Shown: piece by piece, positions 32,163 through 41,145 of the stretch | How positions within the stretch are numbered: the stretch's first letter is position 1 | Layout: the number at the start of each line of letters is the position of its first letter | From: Betaproteobacteria bacterium HGW-Betaproteobacteria-1 | GTDB taxonomy: Bacteria; Pseudomonadota; Gammaproteobacteria; Burkholderiales; Methylophilaceae | Direction: 5' to 3' | Assembly: GCA_002842435.1 (NCBI GenBank) | Contig: PHCX01000001.1 | Span: 62,001 to 126,000, forward strand | DNA length: 64,000 nucleotides | Notes under the pieces: generated by a model | Seen by the model: only the letters and a program-made list of their open reading frames with translations | The model's database searches: none | Told to the model about the DNA's origin: nothing | Program-made: the position numbers and the translations under genes

Positions 32163-32190
32163 AAAAAAAGCCGCCAGACCAGCTGGCGGC
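32163..32190 (-). terminator. Terminator of the OprC-like receptor gene
   Basis: The stem GCCGCCAG/CTGGCGGC with loop ACCAG, preceded by seven A on the plus strand, reads as a hairpin plus T tract on the minus strand, just past the receptor stop at 32212. Confidence 0.8.
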
Positions 32191-32211: not shown

Positions 32212-34476
32212 TTAGAACATGACGGTCAACGTCGTGTTAATGGAACGGCCCATGCCGGGAACGGCGGTGCCATAAAGCACGCCACTGCCCATGGTGGCAC
32301 CCTGACCAAGGTAGGAACCACCGAGTGGATCGTCGTAATCCTTGTCCAGCAGGTTTTCGAGGCCGACATCCAGACGTGCATGCTTCCATTCATAACTGCT
32401 GTAGAAATTGAGCAGGCCGTAACCAGAAGTTTCCAGCTCCTTGCGTACATCCTGCACGCGATCCTTGGCATCGACCAGCTTCAGTTCCAGCGTGTTGCTC
32501 CATTGACCGAAACGATGGTCCAGCGCCAGCTTCATGTTGAGCGGCATGATGTGATAGAGATCATCGCCGGAAGAGAGGTTTCTGCCACGCGTGTAGCTGA
32601 CCAGACCCTTGGCCTGCAGACTGCCGAAGCTGCCGCCCTTGATTAGTGACAATTTGCCGGACATATCCACACCGTAGATACGGGCGCGCTGGTTATCCAG
32701 GCTCAGGTTGAGGAAACCGTCGGTACGTACCGGACATACCTTGCCGACTTCATCACAGGCGACAGCATCGATGTAGTCATTGATATAGGTGTAGTAAGGC
32801 GTGAGCTTGAGACTCCAGTTATCCTGTGCCGCATCGTGCCAGTTGCCGGAAACGCTCAGGGTATGCGCGACTTCCGGATCAAGGTCGAGGTTGCCGACAT
32901 AACCGTTGCCATCGCCATACCAGTTGTTCATGTTCATGACCATGCTGTTGTTGCTGGACCAGGTATAACGCTCGTAAAGGTTGGGCGAGCGGGACTTCAT
33001 GGCATAACCGGCTTCATAGGTTTGGCGTTCATCCGGCGTAAAGCGCGCGATGGCAGTCAAATCCAGATTCTGGTCGGTTTCGCTGCGGTCGGCAGCATTG
33101 AAGGCGCCCGGGATGCTGGTTGGATCAGTGGGATCACCATAACTCATCATGCCGATAGTGCTGTAACCCTGCACAGTGCCCGCATCCATTTTCACGGTCT
33201 CATGACGCAGGCCGAGTTGCGTCATCCATTGGGAATTCCAGCGTGCTTCCCATTCGCCAAACACGGCATAACGGTCGCGTTCGCCGTTGTTGATGTTGTA
33301 GAAGGTGCCGGGACCCATCATGTTGCCGGAATTGGCTACAGGATCCCACCAGTCATCCAGGCGATAACGCTGGAATTCGGTACCGACGCGCAGGAGATCG
33401 CGCTCGGAGAGGATGACGTCGCCCTGCAGCTTGAAACCGGTATTGCTGCCCCTGGTTTCCATTGGCATGCCGGCGACCGGAGCGCCCATCATACTGGCAT
33501 AGAAGAACAACTTGTCGTCGCCGAAGTTCATATTGTGGCGCGTACTCTCATGATAAGCGCTGGCTTGCAGCTTGCCCCAATCGTAATCGCCGGTGTAACG
33601 CAGGTTGTAGCTCTCACTGTCGTTGCCGGTCATGTCCATGCGCTGGTTAGGGAAGTTCTGGTATGGGATGTTCTGCACCGCGACCTTGAGTTCAAGCAGG
33701 TGGTTTTCATGGCGCAAGCCGATATCCAGAGCGTGATTCTCTGTTTTATAAGCGGTGGAGCCGACTTCATCGCTAGCCAGCCAACCACGATTACCGCCCG
33801 CAATCGCACTGGTCGCAGCCAAACCAGCCGGCTTGAAACCGCTGCCGGCCTTGTAGTTGTTGGCCTCGGCGGTTGCACCGGTATAGCGCACAGACAAGAT
33901 ATCACTGGCGATAGTGGCGGAGAGGTTGATGCCGCGTGCATCGTTGTTGCTGCGATAAAAAGTGGAAGCTTTGCCTTTCATCAGCAGTTCATCGGCAGAT
34001 GAGGCAAATTCCGGCGCGGCCGAATCCACGGCGATGGTGCCGGCAATACTGTCGCCGCCCATACTGACCGGCGTGATACCGGCGAATACCTTGATCTTCT
34101 CGACGTTGCTCGGGTCGATGTAGGAAAGCGGCGAATTCATGTGGTTGGCACAGGCGGAAATCAGGTCCATGCCGTCGACCTTGATGCGGATACGATCATC
34201 AGCCAGACCATGGATGGATGGCAGGCTGGAAACGCCGCCGGCGCGATAGAGGCTGATGCCCGGTTGCCCTTCGAGCAGCGAGGCGGTGTCGCTCGTATTG
34301 GCACGCAGGCGCTGCAAGTCTTCCTGTGAAGGGCTGGAATCGGTCAGTGTCGGCAGCGGCTGCAGCTGCTCCTCATGTACGGAAACTTCAGGTGTTTGGA
34401 TAGGATGCTCGGCGAATGCGACAGGTACAGCAGCAAAACAACCAGCGACGACAAGGGCGATTTTCTTCAACTTCAC
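32212..34476 (-). CDS. OprC/NosA-like TonB-dependent receptor, likely copper
   Basis: A receptor of about 754 residues. A signal peptide (KIALVVAGCFAAVPVAFA) is followed by the plug domain and a 22-strand barrel ending in LTVMF. The key feature is CANHM (C109, M113) in the plug and HNM (H314, M316) in the barrel; Pseudomonas OprC binds copper through a CxxxM plus HxM site, so this receptor probably binds copper too. Extracellular loops are methionine-rich (ASMMGAPVAGMPM, NSMVMNMNNW). GTG 34476 is preferred to TTG 34482 because GGAG is eight bases upstream. It has its own promoter with a RegA-like box and is the last gene of a minus-strand block of six. Confidence 0.85.
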   Translation of the reverse strand: MKLKKIALVVAGCFAAVPVAFAEHPIQTPEVSVHEEQLQPLPTLTDSSPSQEDLQRLRANTSDTASLLEGQPGISLYRAGGVSSLPSIHGLADDRIRIKVDGMDLISACANHMNSPLSYIDPSNVEKIKVFAGITPVSMGGDSIAGTIAVDSAAPEFASSADELLMKGKASTFYRSNNDARGINLSATIASDILSVRYTGATAEANNYKAGSGFKPAGLAATSAIAGGNRGWLASDEVGSTAYKTENHALDIGLRHENHLLELKVAVQNIPYQNFPNQRMDMTGNDSESYNLRYTGDYDWGKLQASAYHESTRHNMNFGDDKLFFYASMMGAPVAGMPMETRGSNTGFKLQGDVILSERDLLRVGTEFQRYRLDDWWDPVANSGNMMGPGTFYNINNGERDRYAVFGEWEARWNSQWMTQLGLRHETVKMDAGTVQGYSTIGMMSYGDPTDPTSIPGAFNAADRSETDQNLDLTAIARFTPDERQTYEAGYAMKSRSPNLYERYTWSSNNSMVMNMNNWYGDGNGYVGNLDLDPEVAHTLSVSGNWHDAAQDNWSLKLTPYYTYINDYIDAVACDEVGKVCPVRTDGFLNLSLDNQRARIYGVDMSGKLSLIKGGSFGSLQAKGLVSYTRGRNLSSGDDLYHIMPLNMKLALDHRFGQWSNTLELKLVDAKDRVQDVRKELETSGYGLLNFYSSYEWKHARLDVGLENLLDKDYDDPLGGSYLGQGATMGSGVLYGTAVPGMGRSINTTLTVMF

Positions 34477-34507: not shown

Positions 34508-34553
34508 ATTATAGGAAGCTACGACCTGCCGAGGAATGCGACATGTTGTCGCA
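34508..34553 (-). promoter_or_regulatory. Promoter and RegA/RegR-like box of the OprC-like gene
   Basis: A perfect inverted repeat TGCGACA-TGT-TGTCGCA (34537-34553) lies 23 bases upstream of a consensus TATAAT (34508-34513), with no good -35 hexamer. Read as GCGACATGTTGTCGC it fits the RegR box GNGRCRTTNNGNCGC at all but one defined position. The layout suits an activator touching the -35 region. Confidence 0.65.
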
Positions 34554-34567
34554 GGCAGGGTTACAAC

Positions 34568-34963
34568 TCAGCCAAATTCAGCTTGCGGCACCATAAGATC
34601 CTGCCATGTCTCATGCCCTGCCCGGATGATGTCGCGCAGACCCCATGGCACGATGACGAGGATCGCCAGGCCCCAGACTGTCAACCACATGGTCAGATTG
34701 CTGCCCAGCAAGTGGCTCAATTGCTCCGTGAAGTTGAGTGCTGCCACCAGCGAACCGACCAGGCCGTAAAAACGATAGCCGGCTGGCACAAGATAGTCCG
34801 CGATGCGAGGGTTGGGATGATGGATCAGGGAGGCGTAAACAAAAATCGAAGCCGCGATCCACAGCATGAGCAGCGGCGGAATCAACACGGCCACGATGGA
34901 GGCGATATTGAAGACTTGCGCCGACAGCCGCTGCTGCCGCACACTTAGCACGAATCCACTCAT
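34568..34963 (-). CDS. Small inner membrane protein of the metal-uptake block
   Basis: A 131-residue protein with three hydrophobic segments (about 20-45, 65-85 and 95-115) and a short charged C-terminus. GGAGG eight bases upstream of ATG 34963 fixes the start. I do not recognise the family and see no metal-binding motif beyond single histidines (LIHHPN). It follows the CcdA/TauE-like gene at 54 bases and precedes the OprC-like receptor, so it probably works with them. Confidence 0.65.
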   Translation of the reverse strand: MSGFVLSVRQQRLSAQVFNIASIVAVLIPPLLMLWIAASIFVYASLIHHPNPRIADYLVPAGYRFYGLVGSLVAALNFTEQLSHLLGSNLTMWLTVWGLAILVIVPWGLRDIIRAGHETWQDLMVPQAEFG

Positions 34964-35017
34964 TCCCTCTTCCTCCGGCAATTCAATTCGTTCAATAAAT
35001 CCACAGTGGCCAATAAC

Positions 35018-35665
35018 TCAAGCCAGCAACATCAGCCGCCTGAGGCCGATGGCGATCAACACCAGCGCCGCACCGCGCCGCGCCCACAAGCCTAGCCAAG
35101 GCCTTCCCTCGCGCAGACGCTGGCCGAAGCTACCAAGCAATGGCAACAGAATCAGCATGGGCGTCACCGCAGCACCAAAGCCAAAGGCTAGACCGTAGCC
35201 TGCTCCCTGTGTCGTGCTGCCTGCCTGTGCGCACACTGCCAGCAGTGTGGCCAGCGGCACGCATGGCGTCATGCTGAGAGCAAAGCCCATGGCGTATGGC
35301 GGCGCTTCGGCGAACGCGCGCCTGGTGCCGCACGAGCGATGTGTTTCGTCCGAGTGCAGCAACCACGCACCTGCAGCGATGCCCGCCAGGCCGATGACAG
35401 CGTGTCCAATGCCGCCAGCCAGGGTGTCGGCCAGCCACTTACCGGCAGCCCCGGCCACTGCCCCCAGCAGGCTGTAGGCTGTAACGCGGCCGGCAAGAAA
35501 AGCGCTGGTATCGCGCAGGGCCAGCCTGGCGCCGGAGCCGCGACCGATCATCCATGTCCCCATGAAGGGCAGGCAGGTGGCGGTGCAGGCGGTAAGGCCC
35601 ATGGACAGGCCCAGCATCCATACCGTCATGACGCTGACGGTATGCAGGGTGATGGCATCAGACAT
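35018..35665 (-). CDS. CcdA/DsbD-like membrane protein (TauE/SafE, UreH type)
   Basis: A 215-residue protein with six hydrophobic helices. Two cysteine-containing motifs sit at symmetrical places: TACTATCLPF in the first helix and MTPCVPL in the fourth, as in CcdA/DsbD thiol transporters and the related UreH-like family. It may carry electrons or metal across the membrane. ATG 35665, with GGAAAG upstream and an 8-base overlap with the ferredoxin gene, is favoured over 35689. Its coupling to a ferredoxin-type membrane protein suggests a redox role. Confidence 0.75.
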   Translation of the reverse strand: MSDAITLHTVSVMTVWMLGLSMGLTACTATCLPFMGTWMIGRGSGARLALRDTSAFLAGRVTAYSLLGAVAGAAGKWLADTLAGGIGHAVIGLAGIAAGAWLLHSDETHRSCGTRRAFAEAPPYAMGFALSMTPCVPLATLLAVCAQAGSTTQGAGYGLAFGFGAAVTPMLILLPLLGSFGQRLREGRPWLGLWARRGAALVLIAIGLRRLMLLA

Positions 35666-36713
35666 GGTCTTTCCGCCCTTTCCGGTCATGCCAGACGATC
35701 GTCTTCATCTCGCCGTGCGGCGACTCGCGCCTGATGCGTCGCTTATAGTATTCACGCGCCGAGCGGAACAGGGTGAGCGGCCCCAGTTTGATGGAGATCA
35801 CGCCGTCGTCCGGACAAAACTCGGCACAGCGCCCGCACAGGGTGCAGTCCTCGTGGAAGGCCCCGCGACCATGCGACTGCCAGATCTCGTGAATGTCCAT
35901 CGGGCATGCCTCGTGACAGATGCCGCACTTGGCGCAGCGATCGTGCTGCTGCTTGACCAGCCGCATGGGAGAAGTACGCTGGAAAAATGCGTTGAAAGCG
36001 AGCAGCGGGCAAATGCGGCAGAATGGCTGGCGCAGCGCCAGCGCACCCACCAGGACGAAGCCGAAGAGGGTGTTGGCGACAGCGCCAAAGGCGAAGCCCA
36101 GCCCGCCGGTGTGGATCGCGGCCTGCTCGGCGTCGCCGGTCAGCAGCGTGGTCGCCAATCGCGACGGGCACACCTGGCAGAACGCATCACCCGTCTCATG
36201 AGGAGTCACACCCAGCCCGGCCGCCAATGGCAGGGCAAGCACCAGCAACACTAACAACAGCCACTTCACCGGCCGCGCCTTGGCAGTGTGCCGCTCCTCC
36301 AGCCGCCTAGTGTCGAGCCGGAACAGGCGACCCAGCCGGTAGACAAGTTCCTGCAACGTACCCAGCGGACAGATCCAGCCGCAGAACATCTTGTTCAGCA
36401 GCACGAAGAACACGAAGAAGCTCAGCACGGTAAAGCCCAGCGGCAAAAGCATCTTCAGCGCCACCTCCTGCCCCTGCGCGATAGCCTCACCGATGCGGTG
36501 GTGCAAAATGTGCTGGGTGGGGATCAGTACGCAGTAATCGCCGTCGCGCTTGTCATAGGCGCACGACAACGCCGGCAGCGTCCCGCTGATCTTCTCTGCG
36601 GCGTAGTATCCGACTACGCTGCTACCGTACACCAGCAGCCACAGCATGAAGAGCTGTACGAGCAGGCGCATCCTGCCAAGAGTGGGTACGATACGGCTCA
36701 GAATTTCACGCAT
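35658..36713 (-). CDS. NapH/NosR/CcoG-like membrane ferredoxin (two 4Fe-4S)
   Basis: A 351-residue inner membrane protein with about five transmembrane helices. It carries the NapH-family CxxxCP motifs (FCGWICPLGTLQE and FCRICPLLAF), a third (FCQVCPS), and a cytoplasmic pair of complete 4Fe-4S motifs, CAKCGICHEACP and CTLCGRCAEFCP. Family members move electrons between quinol and periplasmic proteins; CcoG of this superfamily is a cupric reductase, and FtrD works in iron uptake. AAGGAG seven bases upstream supports ATG 36713. It overlaps both neighbours by eight bases, so the three are translationally coupled. Confidence 0.82.
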   Translation of the reverse strand: MREILSRIVPTLGRMRLLVQLFMLWLLVYGSSVVGYYAAEKISGTLPALSCAYDKRDGDYCVLIPTQHILHHRIGEAIAQGQEVALKMLLPLGFTVLSFFVFFVLLNKMFCGWICPLGTLQELVYRLGRLFRLDTRRLEERHTAKARPVKWLLLVLLVLALPLAAGLGVTPHETGDAFCQVCPSRLATTLLTGDAEQAAIHTGGLGFAFGAVANTLFGFVLVGALALRQPFCRICPLLAFNAFFQRTSPMRLVKQQHDRCAKCGICHEACPMDIHEIWQSHGRGAFHEDCTLCGRCAEFCPDDGVISIKLGPLTLFRSAREYYKRRIRRESPHGEMKTIVWHDRKGRKDHV

Positions 36714-37611
36714 TCAGCTTCTCCTTCTTTCCGCGTCCGGTACGACGCAGCAGAGGCGTGGCAAGCAGGCCTCCCAGCAGCATGAAGATCGTCCCCGCCA
36801 TCAGGCTCCTGTCGCGCATGGCCGAAGGAATGTAGTGATAGTTGAAGGTGGTCACGTAATGCTTTTGCGCCTTGTCATGTGATGTCACCAAGACGAATCT
36901 CGCTTTCTGACGGGTGTGATGGCCGGCATTTGCGCCCCCCGTTGGCAATGGCAGATCCTGCGGGATGGTCACCTCGGCGACGCCGTTGCGGTCGGCCACG
37001 AACTGGACCCGACTGCCCTGCTCAGTAATCAAGCGAAGGGTGGCGCCGGCCTGAGGACTGCCCTGGAAACGCACCAGGAACTTCCAGCTCTCACCTTCGC
37101 GGTAATGCCAGTGCTCGCGCGGCAGCGGCATAGGCACGATTTCCAGTTCGTGCTTGGGTTGTGCCAGCATTGCAGTCGGGGCCGGCCCCGGATTGCTGAA
37201 ATAACGCACGGAGCTAGCCACGCGTACCTCACCGTCAACCTCGGCACGCGCAGTGATCCAGTGATAGTTCCCCTTGCGGCCTGGGGTAAGTGCGAAGCGC
37301 CCATTTTGCAGCAGCGACTCGTACGGGGCATCCCCACCCTGCACCGCGAATCTCTCAGGGAACTTGCCCTGCCCCGTCGGCGGGTAGACCTGCACACTAA
37401 GCGCCGGCAGGTTCCTCACGTCGAATACCGCCCGGTTGCGCATGGAGGCAGAAGTTTCCTCTATCAGCGGGTACGTAGTCCAGGGCTGCGCAACATCCGC
37501 AGCCGGTTGATGTGTCTGCCCGGCATGCTGGCCATGCCCCTCTCCGCCGTATGCCACGCCATCAGCCACCGCCAGTAGCATGCAGCCAGCCAGCATCACT
37601 CTAGCGACCAT
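36706..37611 (-). CDS. His-rich periplasmic protein, DUF4198/NikM-like, C-terminal anchor
   Basis: A 301-residue protein with a signal peptide, a histidine-rich mature N-terminus (GEGHGQHAGQTHQ), a beta-rich region with the pattern WKFLVRFQGSPQAGATLRLI...DRNGVAEVTIP, further histidines (ANAGHHTRQKA), and a C-terminal transmembrane helix followed by a basic tail. The beta region resembles DUF4198 proteins, which accompany nickel/cobalt and TonB-linked metal uptake. It probably binds metal in the periplasm between the receptor and the inner membrane. AGGAG eight bases upstream fixes the start; the gene follows the TonB receptor by 11 bases. Confidence 0.6.
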   Translation of the reverse strand: MVARVMLAGCMLLAVADGVAYGGEGHGQHAGQTHQPAADVAQPWTTYPLIEETSASMRNRAVFDVRNLPALSVQVYPPTGQGKFPERFAVQGGDAPYESLLQNGRFALTPGRKGNYHWITARAEVDGEVRVASSVRYFSNPGPAPTAMLAQPKHELEIVPMPLPREHWHYREGESWKFLVRFQGSPQAGATLRLITEQGSRVQFVADRNGVAEVTIPQDLPLPTGGANAGHHTRQKARFVLVTSHDKAQKHYVTTFNYHYIPSAMRDRSLMAGTIFMLLGGLLATPLLRRTGRGKKEKLNA

Positions 37612-37622
37612 GGACAGGTCTC

Positions 37623-39743
37623 CTAAAAGTCATAGCGATAAGTCAGCATCATCAGGCGCGGACTGGCTGTCGTGTAGGTCACCCGCCCGCTTGTATCCTT
37701 CTTCGCTTCCACGGCATAGCGCTTGTTGGTCAGGTTCTCCACATTGAACGCCAGGCTGTGGTGACCGAAGTCGTAGCCCAGCATGAGTGTCGTGACCAGG
37801 TCGTAACCGTCGTATTTCTCGCTATTGGCGTTGTCCATCCAGTACTCACCCCATGAATTAGCCTGCAGACGGCCCTTGAACCCTGAAGGATGGTGGTAGT
37901 TGGCGAACACGGAGTACTGGTGGCGAGGCACGAAAGGAAGGTGATTACCGGAACGGTCGACGTTGGTGGTCACGAACCCGGTGCGCACCGGCTCACTGAA
38001 CTGATCGAAGGTATAGTCACTGTAAGCATAGCTGCCGCCGACATGCACTCGGTCGAACAGACGCAGCGAGCCGGACAGTTCCACACCCTTCTTGTCGGTT
38101 TCTCCGGCATTGCGGAATTCGCTCTCGCCACTGGGTTGGCGCACGGTGACGATTTCCTTCTCCACCGGGCTGACGTAGGCCGAAGCGTCGAAGCTCCAAT
38201 CGGCATGGCGACCCTTGATCCCGATTTCATAACTCCGAGTGCGCGACGGTTCCAGCGCCGGGTTGGAGGTCACCTCGCTGTCGGAAGGCACCTGGTCAGC
38301 CTGCGCCACCGAGGCGAACAGGTTAACCGCGGGCGTCAGGCGGAAGCTCACTCCCAGCTTGGGAGAGAACAGCTTGAAGTTCTTGCGCGTGACCAGTAGC
38401 CCGTCACCGGCCACGTACTCGCCACTGGTGTAGTCGAAGCGGGTGAGCTCATTCTGGTCAATTTCCAGTCGGGAGCGGTCATAGCGAAAACCGGCATCCA
38501 CCAGCACGCGCTCCCCTAACTGCAGCGACTCCTGCATGAACACGCCGTAGAGCAGGTTGCTCTGATCCTGGGTCTCGGCCATCGCGCCCTTTTTGTCAGA
38601 GAGCGTGGCGGTGATGCGGCCGGCCTGTGGCCCGAACGGAATTCGAGTGACATCCCGGTACTGGTATTTGCGCACGTCCTCGTTCCATGTACGCTTCACG
38701 GTCACCCCAGCCACCAAACTGGCGTCGATCGTTCCCAAGCGGTGCCGGAAAACATTCTCGATATCGGTGCCCAGGGTCTGCGTCCAGTCGCCGGACTCGT
38801 TGATGATGCCAGTGACCGGATGATAATGCTTCCAAGCGTTGTAATAGACACGCGGACGGAAACTCCAGTCGCCGAAATCACGCTCATAACGCGAATTGAA
38901 GAACCAGATTCTCGAGTAGCGGCCAGAATGCTTCCATGGTTCCGAGGTCTCCTTCTGCTCCCCGCTGCGCTTGTATTCGTCGAACAGGGCTTCATCCACC
39001 GCACCGGGCAGCTGCAGGTCGGCTTCTGAATACGACAGTTCGCTTTCCAGAGTGGCATCCTCGCCCAACAGCACACCATGCTTGACCCCCAGCATGGTGG
39101 TGTCGAATTCGTTCCAATCGCGCCAGTGGTTTTCCTGTTCACGGTGGGAGAAGGTCACGGCAAGTGCGTGACTGTCGTTCACCATGCCACCATAGCGCAG
39201 GTGGGCGTTGCGCGCGCCTTCCTCGCCAGCACCCAGCCTCATATTGTTGGCATTGGCGTCAAACACGGAACGCGAGATGATCTGTATCGCACCTCCCGCG
39301 CTGCCCGGACTGAACAGGTTGCCTGGCCCCTTGGTCACCTCGATGCGCTCGATATCCTGGGTATCAATGAAATCCAGCCGGGTGAAGCTATCCGGATCGG
39401 TCATCGGAACGCCGTCGCGGATCACCATGATCTCGCGAATACCGAACGGCGCCTTCAGCCCGGCGCCGCGGATGATGAGACGGGCGTCATAGCCACCGTT
39501 CTTGCTGTCTATCAGCACCCCAGGGGTACCTTGTAGCGCATCCTTGATATTGAACATGCGCGCTGCTTCAATTTCCTCCTTGCCGATCACGTTGATGGCC
39601 TGCGGCACATCCTTGGTGACTCGTGCCTCGCGTGTCGCCGTCACGCTGACATCATCCACCTTGATGACCTCGTTCTCCGCCGCCAGCGCCACCGCCCCGT
39701 AAACGAACAGGCCAAGCGCCAACGGAAACCCGCCTCTCGACAT
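37623..39743 (-). CDS. TonB-dependent outer membrane receptor
   Basis: A 706-residue receptor with a signal peptide, a TonB-box-like N-terminus (DDVSVTAT), a plug domain (LQGTPGVLIDS, LIIRGAG, IERIEVTKGPG) and a barrel ending in LTYRYDF. It resembles ferric-siderophore and related receptors, not the OprC branch, and lacks the CxxxM site of the second receptor. GGGAG five bases upstream supports the ATG. It is the first gene of the minus-strand block and diverges from regB across a 127-base region with two RegA-like boxes. The ligand is unknown. Confidence 0.85.
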   Translation of the reverse strand: MSRGGFPLALGLFVYGAVALAAENEVIKVDDVSVTATREARVTKDVPQAINVIGKEEIEAARMFNIKDALQGTPGVLIDSKNGGYDARLIIRGAGLKAPFGIREIMVIRDGVPMTDPDSFTRLDFIDTQDIERIEVTKGPGNLFSPGSAGGAIQIISRSVFDANANNMRLGAGEEGARNAHLRYGGMVNDSHALAVTFSHREQENHWRDWNEFDTTMLGVKHGVLLGEDATLESELSYSEADLQLPGAVDEALFDEYKRSGEQKETSEPWKHSGRYSRIWFFNSRYERDFGDWSFRPRVYYNAWKHYHPVTGIINESGDWTQTLGTDIENVFRHRLGTIDASLVAGVTVKRTWNEDVRKYQYRDVTRIPFGPQAGRITATLSDKKGAMAETQDQSNLLYGVFMQESLQLGERVLVDAGFRYDRSRLEIDQNELTRFDYTSGEYVAGDGLLVTRKNFKLFSPKLGVSFRLTPAVNLFASVAQADQVPSDSEVTSNPALEPSRTRSYEIGIKGRHADWSFDASAYVSPVEKEIVTVRQPSGESEFRNAGETDKKGVELSGSLRLFDRVHVGGSYAYSDYTFDQFSEPVRTGFVTTNVDRSGNHLPFVPRHQYSVFANYHHPSGFKGRLQANSWGEYWMDNANSEKYDGYDLVTTLMLGYDFGHHSLAFNVENLTNKRYAVEAKKDTSGRVTYTTASPRLMMLTYRYDF

Positions 39744-39805: not shown

Positions 39806-39836
39806 GTGACACGTTGTCGCGCGACAATTCGTCGCA
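39806..39836. promoter_or_regulatory. Tandem RegA/RegR-like boxes between the TonB operon and regB
   Basis: GTGACACGTTGTCGC (39806-39820) and GCGACAATTCGTCGC (39821-39835) are adjacent matches to GNGRCRTTNNGNCGC with two and one mismatches. Their junction forms the perfect 14-bp palindrome TTGTCGCGCGACAA. A TAAAAT -10-like box for regB lies 22-23 bases downstream (39859-39864), the same distance as at the OprC-like gene. Confidence 0.6.
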
Positions 39837-39870: not shown

Positions 39871-41145
39871 ATGTTCGCCAGACATTTCCATCCGCATACC
39901 GCCGCGACCAAAAACCTGCGCCGCCTGTTCTGGGTACGCAATGTCGTCATCGGCTTCCTGGCGTCAATTGCACTGCTACTGCATTACCTCAATATCCCAT
40001 TGAGCCCCTGGCCGATAGCTGTGGCTCTGGGCGCCATGCTGTTGCTGAATGTCATGACCTGGTGGCGCCTGCGCGATCCGGTCGGCGTCAGCGAAGCCGA
40101 GTTGCTGGTGCAATTGCTGGGGGATATCGTCGCGCTGACGACGCTGTTCTATTTCACCGGCGGCTACAGCAATCCTTTCGTCTGGATGTATCTGCTACCG
40201 CTGGCGATCGCAGCTGTTGCCCTCAATACGCTTTATGTCTGGCTGATCGCCATGCTGGCCGTATTCAGTTATTCCATGCTGGTGTTCTTCCACATCCCCT
40301 TATCCCACCTGCATGTGCATGCCGGGGTCGGCATGGATCTCGATATTCATCTTGTCGGCATGTGGCTGGGCTTTGTGGTCAGCGCCGGCATCTTTGCCTT
40401 CTTCGTCACCCGTATCGGGCAAAACCTGCGTGAGTACGACCGCATCACGGCAGAAGCACGGGAATCGGCGCTGGAGAGTGAGCGCATGCTCGCACTGGGC
40501 GCACTGGCAACGGCGGCGGCGCACGAGTTGGGCACGCCGCTGGCAACCATGGCGGTGCTGACTCGGGAAATGAGCGAAGAATATGCCCATATTCCGCAGC
40601 TGCAACAGGATCTCGGCCTGCTGCGTAAGCAGGTGGACCGCTGCAAGGATATCCTGACATCGCTGACATCTTCGGCCGGAGATGCCCGTGCTGTCGACGC
40701 CAACGGCATCGCGCTCGATGATTTCCTGGAAAACACCATCCAGCGCTGGCGTGACATTCGCCCTGCCGTGCAATTGAGCTGTGCCATCAAGGGCAGTACC
40801 CCGGCACCGAAGATCATCACCGACCTGACGCTGGGTATGGCTCTGATCAACCTGTTGGACAATGCAGCCGATGCCTCGCCCGAGCGCGTGGACATTGAAG
40901 GCGAATGGGACCACTCGCTGCTGACGCTGAATATTCGCGACTACGGTGCCGGCATGACAGAAGAAGCAGCCCGGCATGCAGGCACACCGTTCTTTACCAC
41001 CAAACGCGAAGAAGGCATGGGGCTGGGTCTCTATCTTTCCCGCATCATCCTCGGGCGCTTCAATGGCAGCGTGAAACTGGACAAGCATCCGGACAGCGGC
41101 ACCATCACCTGCATCCGCCTGCCGCTGACCGGACTGGCAGCATAA
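39871..41145 (+). CDS. regB: Redox sensor histidine kinase RegB/PrrB
   Basis: A 424-residue membrane kinase that senses the quinone pool and redox state. Six transmembrane helices occupy residues 20-185; the ubiquinone-site heptapeptide GGYSNPF is at 97-103. The H-box AAAHELGTPLATM has His218, and the redox-active cysteine of the family is present as Cys258 in DRCKDIL. The ATPase domain has NLLDNAADAS, RDYGAGM and GMGLGLYLS. It is followed by cytochrome bd genes and then its partner regA. The -10 box lies so close to the ATG that the mRNA may be nearly leaderless. Confidence 0.93.
   Translation: MFARHFHPHTAATKNLRRLFWVRNVVIGFLASIALLLHYLNIPLSPWPIAVALGAMLLLNVMTWWRLRDPVGVSEAELLVQLLGDIVALTTLFYFTGGYSNPFVWMYLLPLAIAAVALNTLYVWLIAMLAVFSYSMLVFFHIPLSHLHVHAGVGMDLDIHLVGMWLGFVVSAGIFAFFVTRIGQNLREYDRITAEARESALESERMLALGALATAAAHELGTPLATMAVLTREMSEEYAHIPQLQQDLGLLRKQVDRCKDILTSLTSSAGDARAVDANGIALDDFLENTIQRWRDIRPAVQLSCAIKGSTPAPKIITDLTLGMALINLLDNAADASPERVDIEGEWDHSLLTLNIRDYGAGMTEEAARHAGTPFFTTKREEGMGLGLYLSRIILGRFNGSVKLDKHPDSGTITCIRLPLTGLAA

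Follow-up and report, generated by a model that had tools for sequence, protein, structure and literature searches.

An OprC-type TonB-dependent receptor with a putative copper site at the end of a probable six-gene operon in a Methylophilaceae genome

The window analyzed here, a stretch of 64,000 nucleotides from contig PHCX01000001.1 of Betaproteobacteria bacterium HGW-Betaproteobacteria-1, carries six minus-strand genes from 39743 to 32212, with -32 to +91 bases between neighboring genes and a strong terminator at the end. They encode, in order, a PqqU-like receptor, a DUF4198-like protein, a NapH-like polyferredoxin, a DsbD_2 protein, a 137-aa membrane protein and an OprC-type receptor, and probably form one operon in which the OprC-type receptor gene is the last. 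The genes and the terminator, together with a divergent kinase gene, were assigned as follows (window positions).

39871..41145, plus strand: sensor kinase of the RegB/PrrB type, scoring under the equivalog cut-off and oriented divergently to the operon
37623..39743, minus strand: first TonB-dependent receptor, without Cys; closest solved structure PqqU/YncD
36706..37611, minus strand: DUF4198-like exported protein, below the Pfam cut-off
35658..36713, minus strand: NapH-like membrane polyferredoxin, below the NapH/MauN cut-off, not CcoG
35018..35689, minus strand: DsbD_2 family membrane protein (Pfam PF13386)
34568..34981, minus strand: 137-aa membrane protein without a Pfam match, whose homologues adjoin the receptor in several other genomes
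32212..34476, minus strand: OprC-type TonB-dependent receptor of 754 aa, signal peptide at about residues 1-22 (open reading frame with Plug and barrel domains; best PDB match OprC)
32170..32190, minus strand: intrinsic terminator after the receptor gene (8-pair stem, T7 tail)

The last receptor gene starts with a GTG codon at 34476, and a TTG lies two codons further upstream. The initial annotation had ascribed to its product the copper-site motif pair of OprC, together with Met clusters in predicted loops, and had regarded the first TonB receptor as lacking these features. Both motifs were indeed found with the numbering given there, CANHM in the plug at residues 109-113 and HNM in the barrel at 314-316, and the receptor at 37623-39743 was confirmed to lack Cys residues as well as the CxxxM and HxM motifs. 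The relevant elements are listed below.

34138..34152, minus strand: plug motif C109-A-N-H-M113, corresponding to OprC C143/M147 (phmmer alignment)
34141..34143, minus strand: H112, family-specific His beside the site (102/105 members)
33637..33639, minus strand: M280, corresponding to OprC track residue M286 (alignments)
33529..33537, minus strand: barrel motif H314-N-M316, corresponding to OprC H323/M325, at the top of a predicted strand (profile alignment; model)
33460..33492, minus strand: MMGAPVAGMPM loop, residues 329-339, with M337/M339 over OprC track residues M341/M343 (alignment; model loop)
32923..32943, minus strand: MVMNMNN loop, residues 512-518, with M512/M516 lacking an OprC counterpart (alignment; model loop)

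The bare motif pair constitutes weak evidence, since CxxxM and HxM occurred jointly in 4.5% of shuffles of the mature receptor sequence based on composition alone. A second HxM, HIM at residues 642-644, is also present, but conservation there is confined to the Met. The signal resides in the position of the motifs on the OprC ligands and in their near-invariance. A phmmer search of the PDB with the receptor matched only OprC (E 4e-22) and the haem receptor PhuR, and the alignment paired C109 with OprC C143 and M113 with M147 (OprC numbering after PMC8610252). With a profile of 30 relatives, OprC was the best match over most of its length (E 1.7e-37), and H314/M316 were paired with H323/M325, M280 with M286, and the MPM at 337-339 with the MPM at 341-343 of OprC. 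A joint MAFFT alignment with TIGR01778 members gave the same pairing of ligands and track. Thus M280, M337 and M339 correspond to the Met track of OprC, which counts M286 and M343 among its Ag(I) ligands, whereas the remaining track positions differ and new Met residues are added.

Relatives were drawn from 100 genomes plus a scan of GTDB genomes, in which at least 588 stretches of the family were confirmed; the hosts comprise Methylophilaceae, Gallionella, Thiobacillus, Accumulibacter, Rhodoferax, Methylophaga and others. Among the 105 members with the region present (43-97% identity), C109 and M316 were retained in all, M113 in 102 and H314 in 101. The mature receptor has three Cys residues, of which C109 is the sole conserved one; C109 and eight Met residues were conserved at 98% or more, with M113 as the ninth Met. 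That C109 never changes is in keeping with OprC, where Cu(II) requires the Cys ligand but not the His (PMC8610252). Residue 112 was His in 102 of the 105 family members, in contrast to OprC, where it is Arg in nearly all sequences and otherwise Lys. When OprC homologues were added (109 rows), 13 columns were still invariant, M280 and M316 among them. Enrichment of Met among the conserved positions was not significant by itself (p 0.07).

The proposed Met clusters stood in part: M337, M339, M512 and M516 were invariant in the family, as was M280, and the two clusters fell in loops of the model, whereas M329/M330 were shared by only 8 of 106 relatives. The whole MMGAPVAGMPM cluster was therefore rejected as a functional unit, only its last two Met residues being conserved. 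As for exceptions at the site, three near-identical members from 1.3-Mb genomes (L024, L025 and L026) carry CTSHT as the plug motif and TxM as the barrel motif, so that the Cys and one Met are kept while the plug Met and barrel His are replaced by Thr; one further member has QNM in place of HxM.

AlphaFold2 models were built from 30 sequences of the family itself (pLDDT 78, pTM 0.82) and from 109 sequences including OprC homologues (pLDDT 92.9, pTM 0.92, the values for the plug and motif blocks exceeding 90). For both models, Foldseek ranks 1-28 were all OprC chains, followed by PhuR, FrpB and ZnuD, and with the 109-sequence model the TM scores of these 28 best chains were 0.83-0.89 when normalized by OprC. 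In the model, the HxM tops a barrel strand and the Met loop follows it. C109, M113, H314 and M316 would accordingly be expected to converge as they do in the crystal structures of the aligned OprC, with which the model agrees in fold.

Despite these likenesses, the protein is not an OprC/NosA equivalog: it scored 122.5 bits against TIGR01778, far below the curated cut-off of 472.45, and fell in a clade of its own. Likewise, the whole source genome held no TIGR01778 match above the cut-off. Phylogenetic analysis of 54 proteins recovered the family as a single clade (support 100/100) outside the OprC clade; it was sister to a five-sequence group, and both together were sister to the 24 OprC sequences, in a tree built without ZnuD and CrtA sequences and with few, long-branched outgroups, so that the deeper order may shift. 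In the sister group, L064 and L065 keep all four ligands, and L066, L067 and L068 have Gly for the Cys with HxM kept. The simplest reading is that the copper site was ancestral to the family, the sister group and OprC. The receptor thus apparently belongs to a large, OprC-type sister subfamily of OprC, of which no description was found in the literature searched. Compared with OprC/NosA of Pseudomonas (TIGR01778; 6FOK, 6Z8Q and others; PMC8610252), it shares the four ligands, the equivalent of M286, the MPM of the track, the fold and the plug sequence flanking the site; it differs in its identity of about 20%, its separate clade, the His in place of Arg before the plug Met, and the extra invariant Met residues of the MVMNMNN loop and at M644.

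Gene context in the relatives provided independent support for the OprC-type reading. With a home-made model, CruR (DUF2946) was detected in 24 of 108 loci, or 22 of 100 once duplicates were removed; all 29 copies lay on the receptor strand, 25 of them upstream of the receptor, and they carried CxxC and mostly an APP or GPP C-terminus. Pfam assignment of 106 operon neighbors, trimmed by hand of antisense-like ORFs and with three proteins added by hand (one DUF2946, two DsbD_2), yielded DUF2946 (14), TonB (6), PCuAC (5), ExbD (4) and PepSY_TM (3). PCuAC is a copper chaperone for oxidases. CruR has been shown by experiment to be a copper-sensing leader, and the family loci thereby resemble the known CruR-headed copper operons (PMC9426467), whereas the source genome is devoid of CruR and has a palindromic promoter box instead. 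No CruR ORF was found in the window or elsewhere in the source genome, which encodes two ccoN, an aa3 oxidase operon and PCuAC. In Methylophilus rhizosphaerae (L158:5992-12396), CruR, the OprC-type receptor, a second TonB receptor, PepSY_TM and PCuAC are arrayed in a row, so that this named strain offers a compact operon for copper uptake.

Taken together, four separately obtained lines of evidence (sequence alignment, conservation within the family, the predicted fold and the gene context) supported the proposed OprC copper-site pair, and the receptor very probably imports copper through this site in the manner of OprC. What the data show directly is homology of the four ligands and of part of the track, the fold, the conservation, an operon-like gene order and copper-linked neighbors in relatives; that the receptor binds and transports copper, in which oxidation state and for what use, is inferred. 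Copper would enter via an external opening lined with M280, M337 and M339, plus M512/M516 in this branch only, and would come to rest between C109 and M113 of the plug and H314 and M316 of the barrel wall; movement of the plug by TonB would then release it into the periplasm, where it would most likely feed haem-copper oxidases. Counted against this reading were the absence of CruR from the source genome, which leaves copper control of the copy in the window merely putative; the low TIGR01778 score and remote identity to OprC; and the DUF4198-type neighbors, which are linked to iron (PMC11870441).

The alternative that survives best, albeit an unlikely one, is that the receptor imports a copper chelate, such as a chalkophore or small carboxylate complex, like Bordetella CrtA, with the Cys/Met/His site stripping or checking the metal. 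CrtA/BfrG of Bordetella and P. aeruginosa (9RVQ; PMC12914433) is likewise TonB-dependent, and the CruR, PepSY_TM and PCuAC genes in part of our loci match the neighbors reported for CrtA, whose operons are also marked by PepSY_TM and CruR; the loops of the receptor are, in addition, longer than those of mature OprC. Nevertheless, CrtA was absent from the PDB matches of both the receptor and the family profile at E 0.001, and this importer of chelated Cu(II) has no conserved Cys or Met (PMC12914433), residues that are conserved in the present family. A zinc receptor of the ZnuD type is highly improbable. Neisseria ZnuD (4RDR), a distant match to the receptor at 13-14% identity, shares the fold and places its metal site at nearly the same position (PMC8610252), but no Cys/Met site is known in it, such ligands suit copper over zinc, the neighboring genes are those of copper, and ZnuD ranked under every OprC chain in both sequence and fold. 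An equally slim chance attaches to a haem or haemoglobin receptor, as the nearest NCBIfam models would have it: TIGR01785/01786 gave 149-153 bits and PhuR was the next fold match behind OprC, yet neither score reaches half of its curated cut-off, and this assignment would leave the conservation of soft-metal ligands and the copper context unexplained. Chance resemblance of the motif pair on an ordinary siderophore receptor, for which its frequency in shuffled sequences might speak, can practically be dismissed, being already contradicted by the exact alignment with the OprC ligands and the near-invariance in 105 relatives.

Returning to the OprC-type reading, copper uptake across the outer membrane of Gram-negative bacteria is poorly known, and the family supplies a sequence signature for copper import, CxNHM in the plug with HxM and GMPM in the barrel, that reaches many water and soil bacteria well past the annotated OprC set. 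The natural site variants, namely the Thr/Thr clade and the sister-group members with Gly for the Cys, represent ready-made mutants for addressing the ligands in relation to the metal and its oxidation state.

As regards regulation, the following elements were identified.

39806..39835, no strand assigned: two tandem box copies between the operon head and regB
34538..34552, no strand assigned: palindromic box GCGACATGTTGTCGC (TGCGACA-N3-TGTCGCA), 62 bases upstream of the receptor start codon (pattern search)
34508..34513, minus strand: possible -10 element TATAAT of a private promoter, between box and start (read from sequence)

The pattern GYGRC-N5-GTCGC occurred upstream of 39 of 99 family genes versus 40 of 850 other ORFs, in most cases at a distance of 40-120 bases from the start; within the first 150 bases, the box preceded 32 of 99 family genes as against 8 of 284 others having a real upstream gap (p 3e-14). 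It agrees with the published RegR box GNGRCRTTNNGNCGC (PMC5506826) in the outer halves only. In 11 of 33 loci, regB is no more than seven genes away from the receptor gene. Weaker box copies in the source genome are found upstream of the aa3 oxidase operon (L224:3146) and of a copper P-type ATPase (L227:2555) adjoining cbb3/CcoG genes; further weak copies fall inside unrelated genes. We propose RegA as the protein that binds the box, which may, with less certainty, tie expression to respiration. Box and CruR were nearly exclusive (both in one gene, box alone in 38, CruR alone in 21; p 1e-4), a distribution that may reflect clade structure.

Of the remaining operon products, the polyferredoxin was considered as CcoG and rejected, because the best model was NapH/MauN, below its cut-off, and a true CcoG is encoded elsewhere in the genome. 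The first receptor was similarly rejected as CrtA, PqqU/YncD being far closer (5e-34 versus 4e-15). The suggestion that the two receptors differ in ligand or oxidation-state preference was thus borne out by half, in that the first is of a different type. The DUF4198-like/NapH-like polyferredoxin/DsbD_2 cassette (35018-37611 in the window) recurs with a TonB receptor in several families, where it adjoins the OprC-type gene and tonB-exbB-exbD (L082, L085, L202-L214). A metal-reducing role is plausible given that CcoG, a relative of the polyferredoxin, is a cupric reductase and that DUF4198 proteins have been linked to iron and ferric reduction (PMC11870441); the cassette may hence reduce a metal or its chelate, possibly acting on iron instead of copper. 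The polyferredoxin was found in 19 of 300 genomes of the order, spread over eight taxonomic families, and the OprC-type receptor accompanied it in 15 of these 19 genomes versus 35 of the 281 others (Fisher p 7e-10, uncorrected for kinship).

A more far-reaching reading, which we regard as tentative and rather doubtful, is that the family constitutes a distinct importer class with altered site chemistry (the extra His112; the Thr/Thr clade), a dedicated metal-reducing cassette and a CruR-or-box switch, the box being shared with haem-copper oxidase genes and probably read by RegB/RegA. The Thr/Thr variants invoked here are those of one streamlined methylotroph clade in which the Cys is retained.

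The polyferredoxin and the receptor are encoded by adjacent genes or by genes no more than about 9 kb apart in about ten of these genomes, and these paired loci usually contain tonB-exbB-exbD and sometimes genes for a BNR-repeat protein and a thioredoxin-like protein. As a separate observation, the trio of TonB receptor, BNR-repeat protein and thioredoxin-like protein recurs near the loci (L094:4509-8099, L096 and L202-L206), and several of its BNR-repeat proteins possess a His-rich N-terminus such as HEGHDHG.
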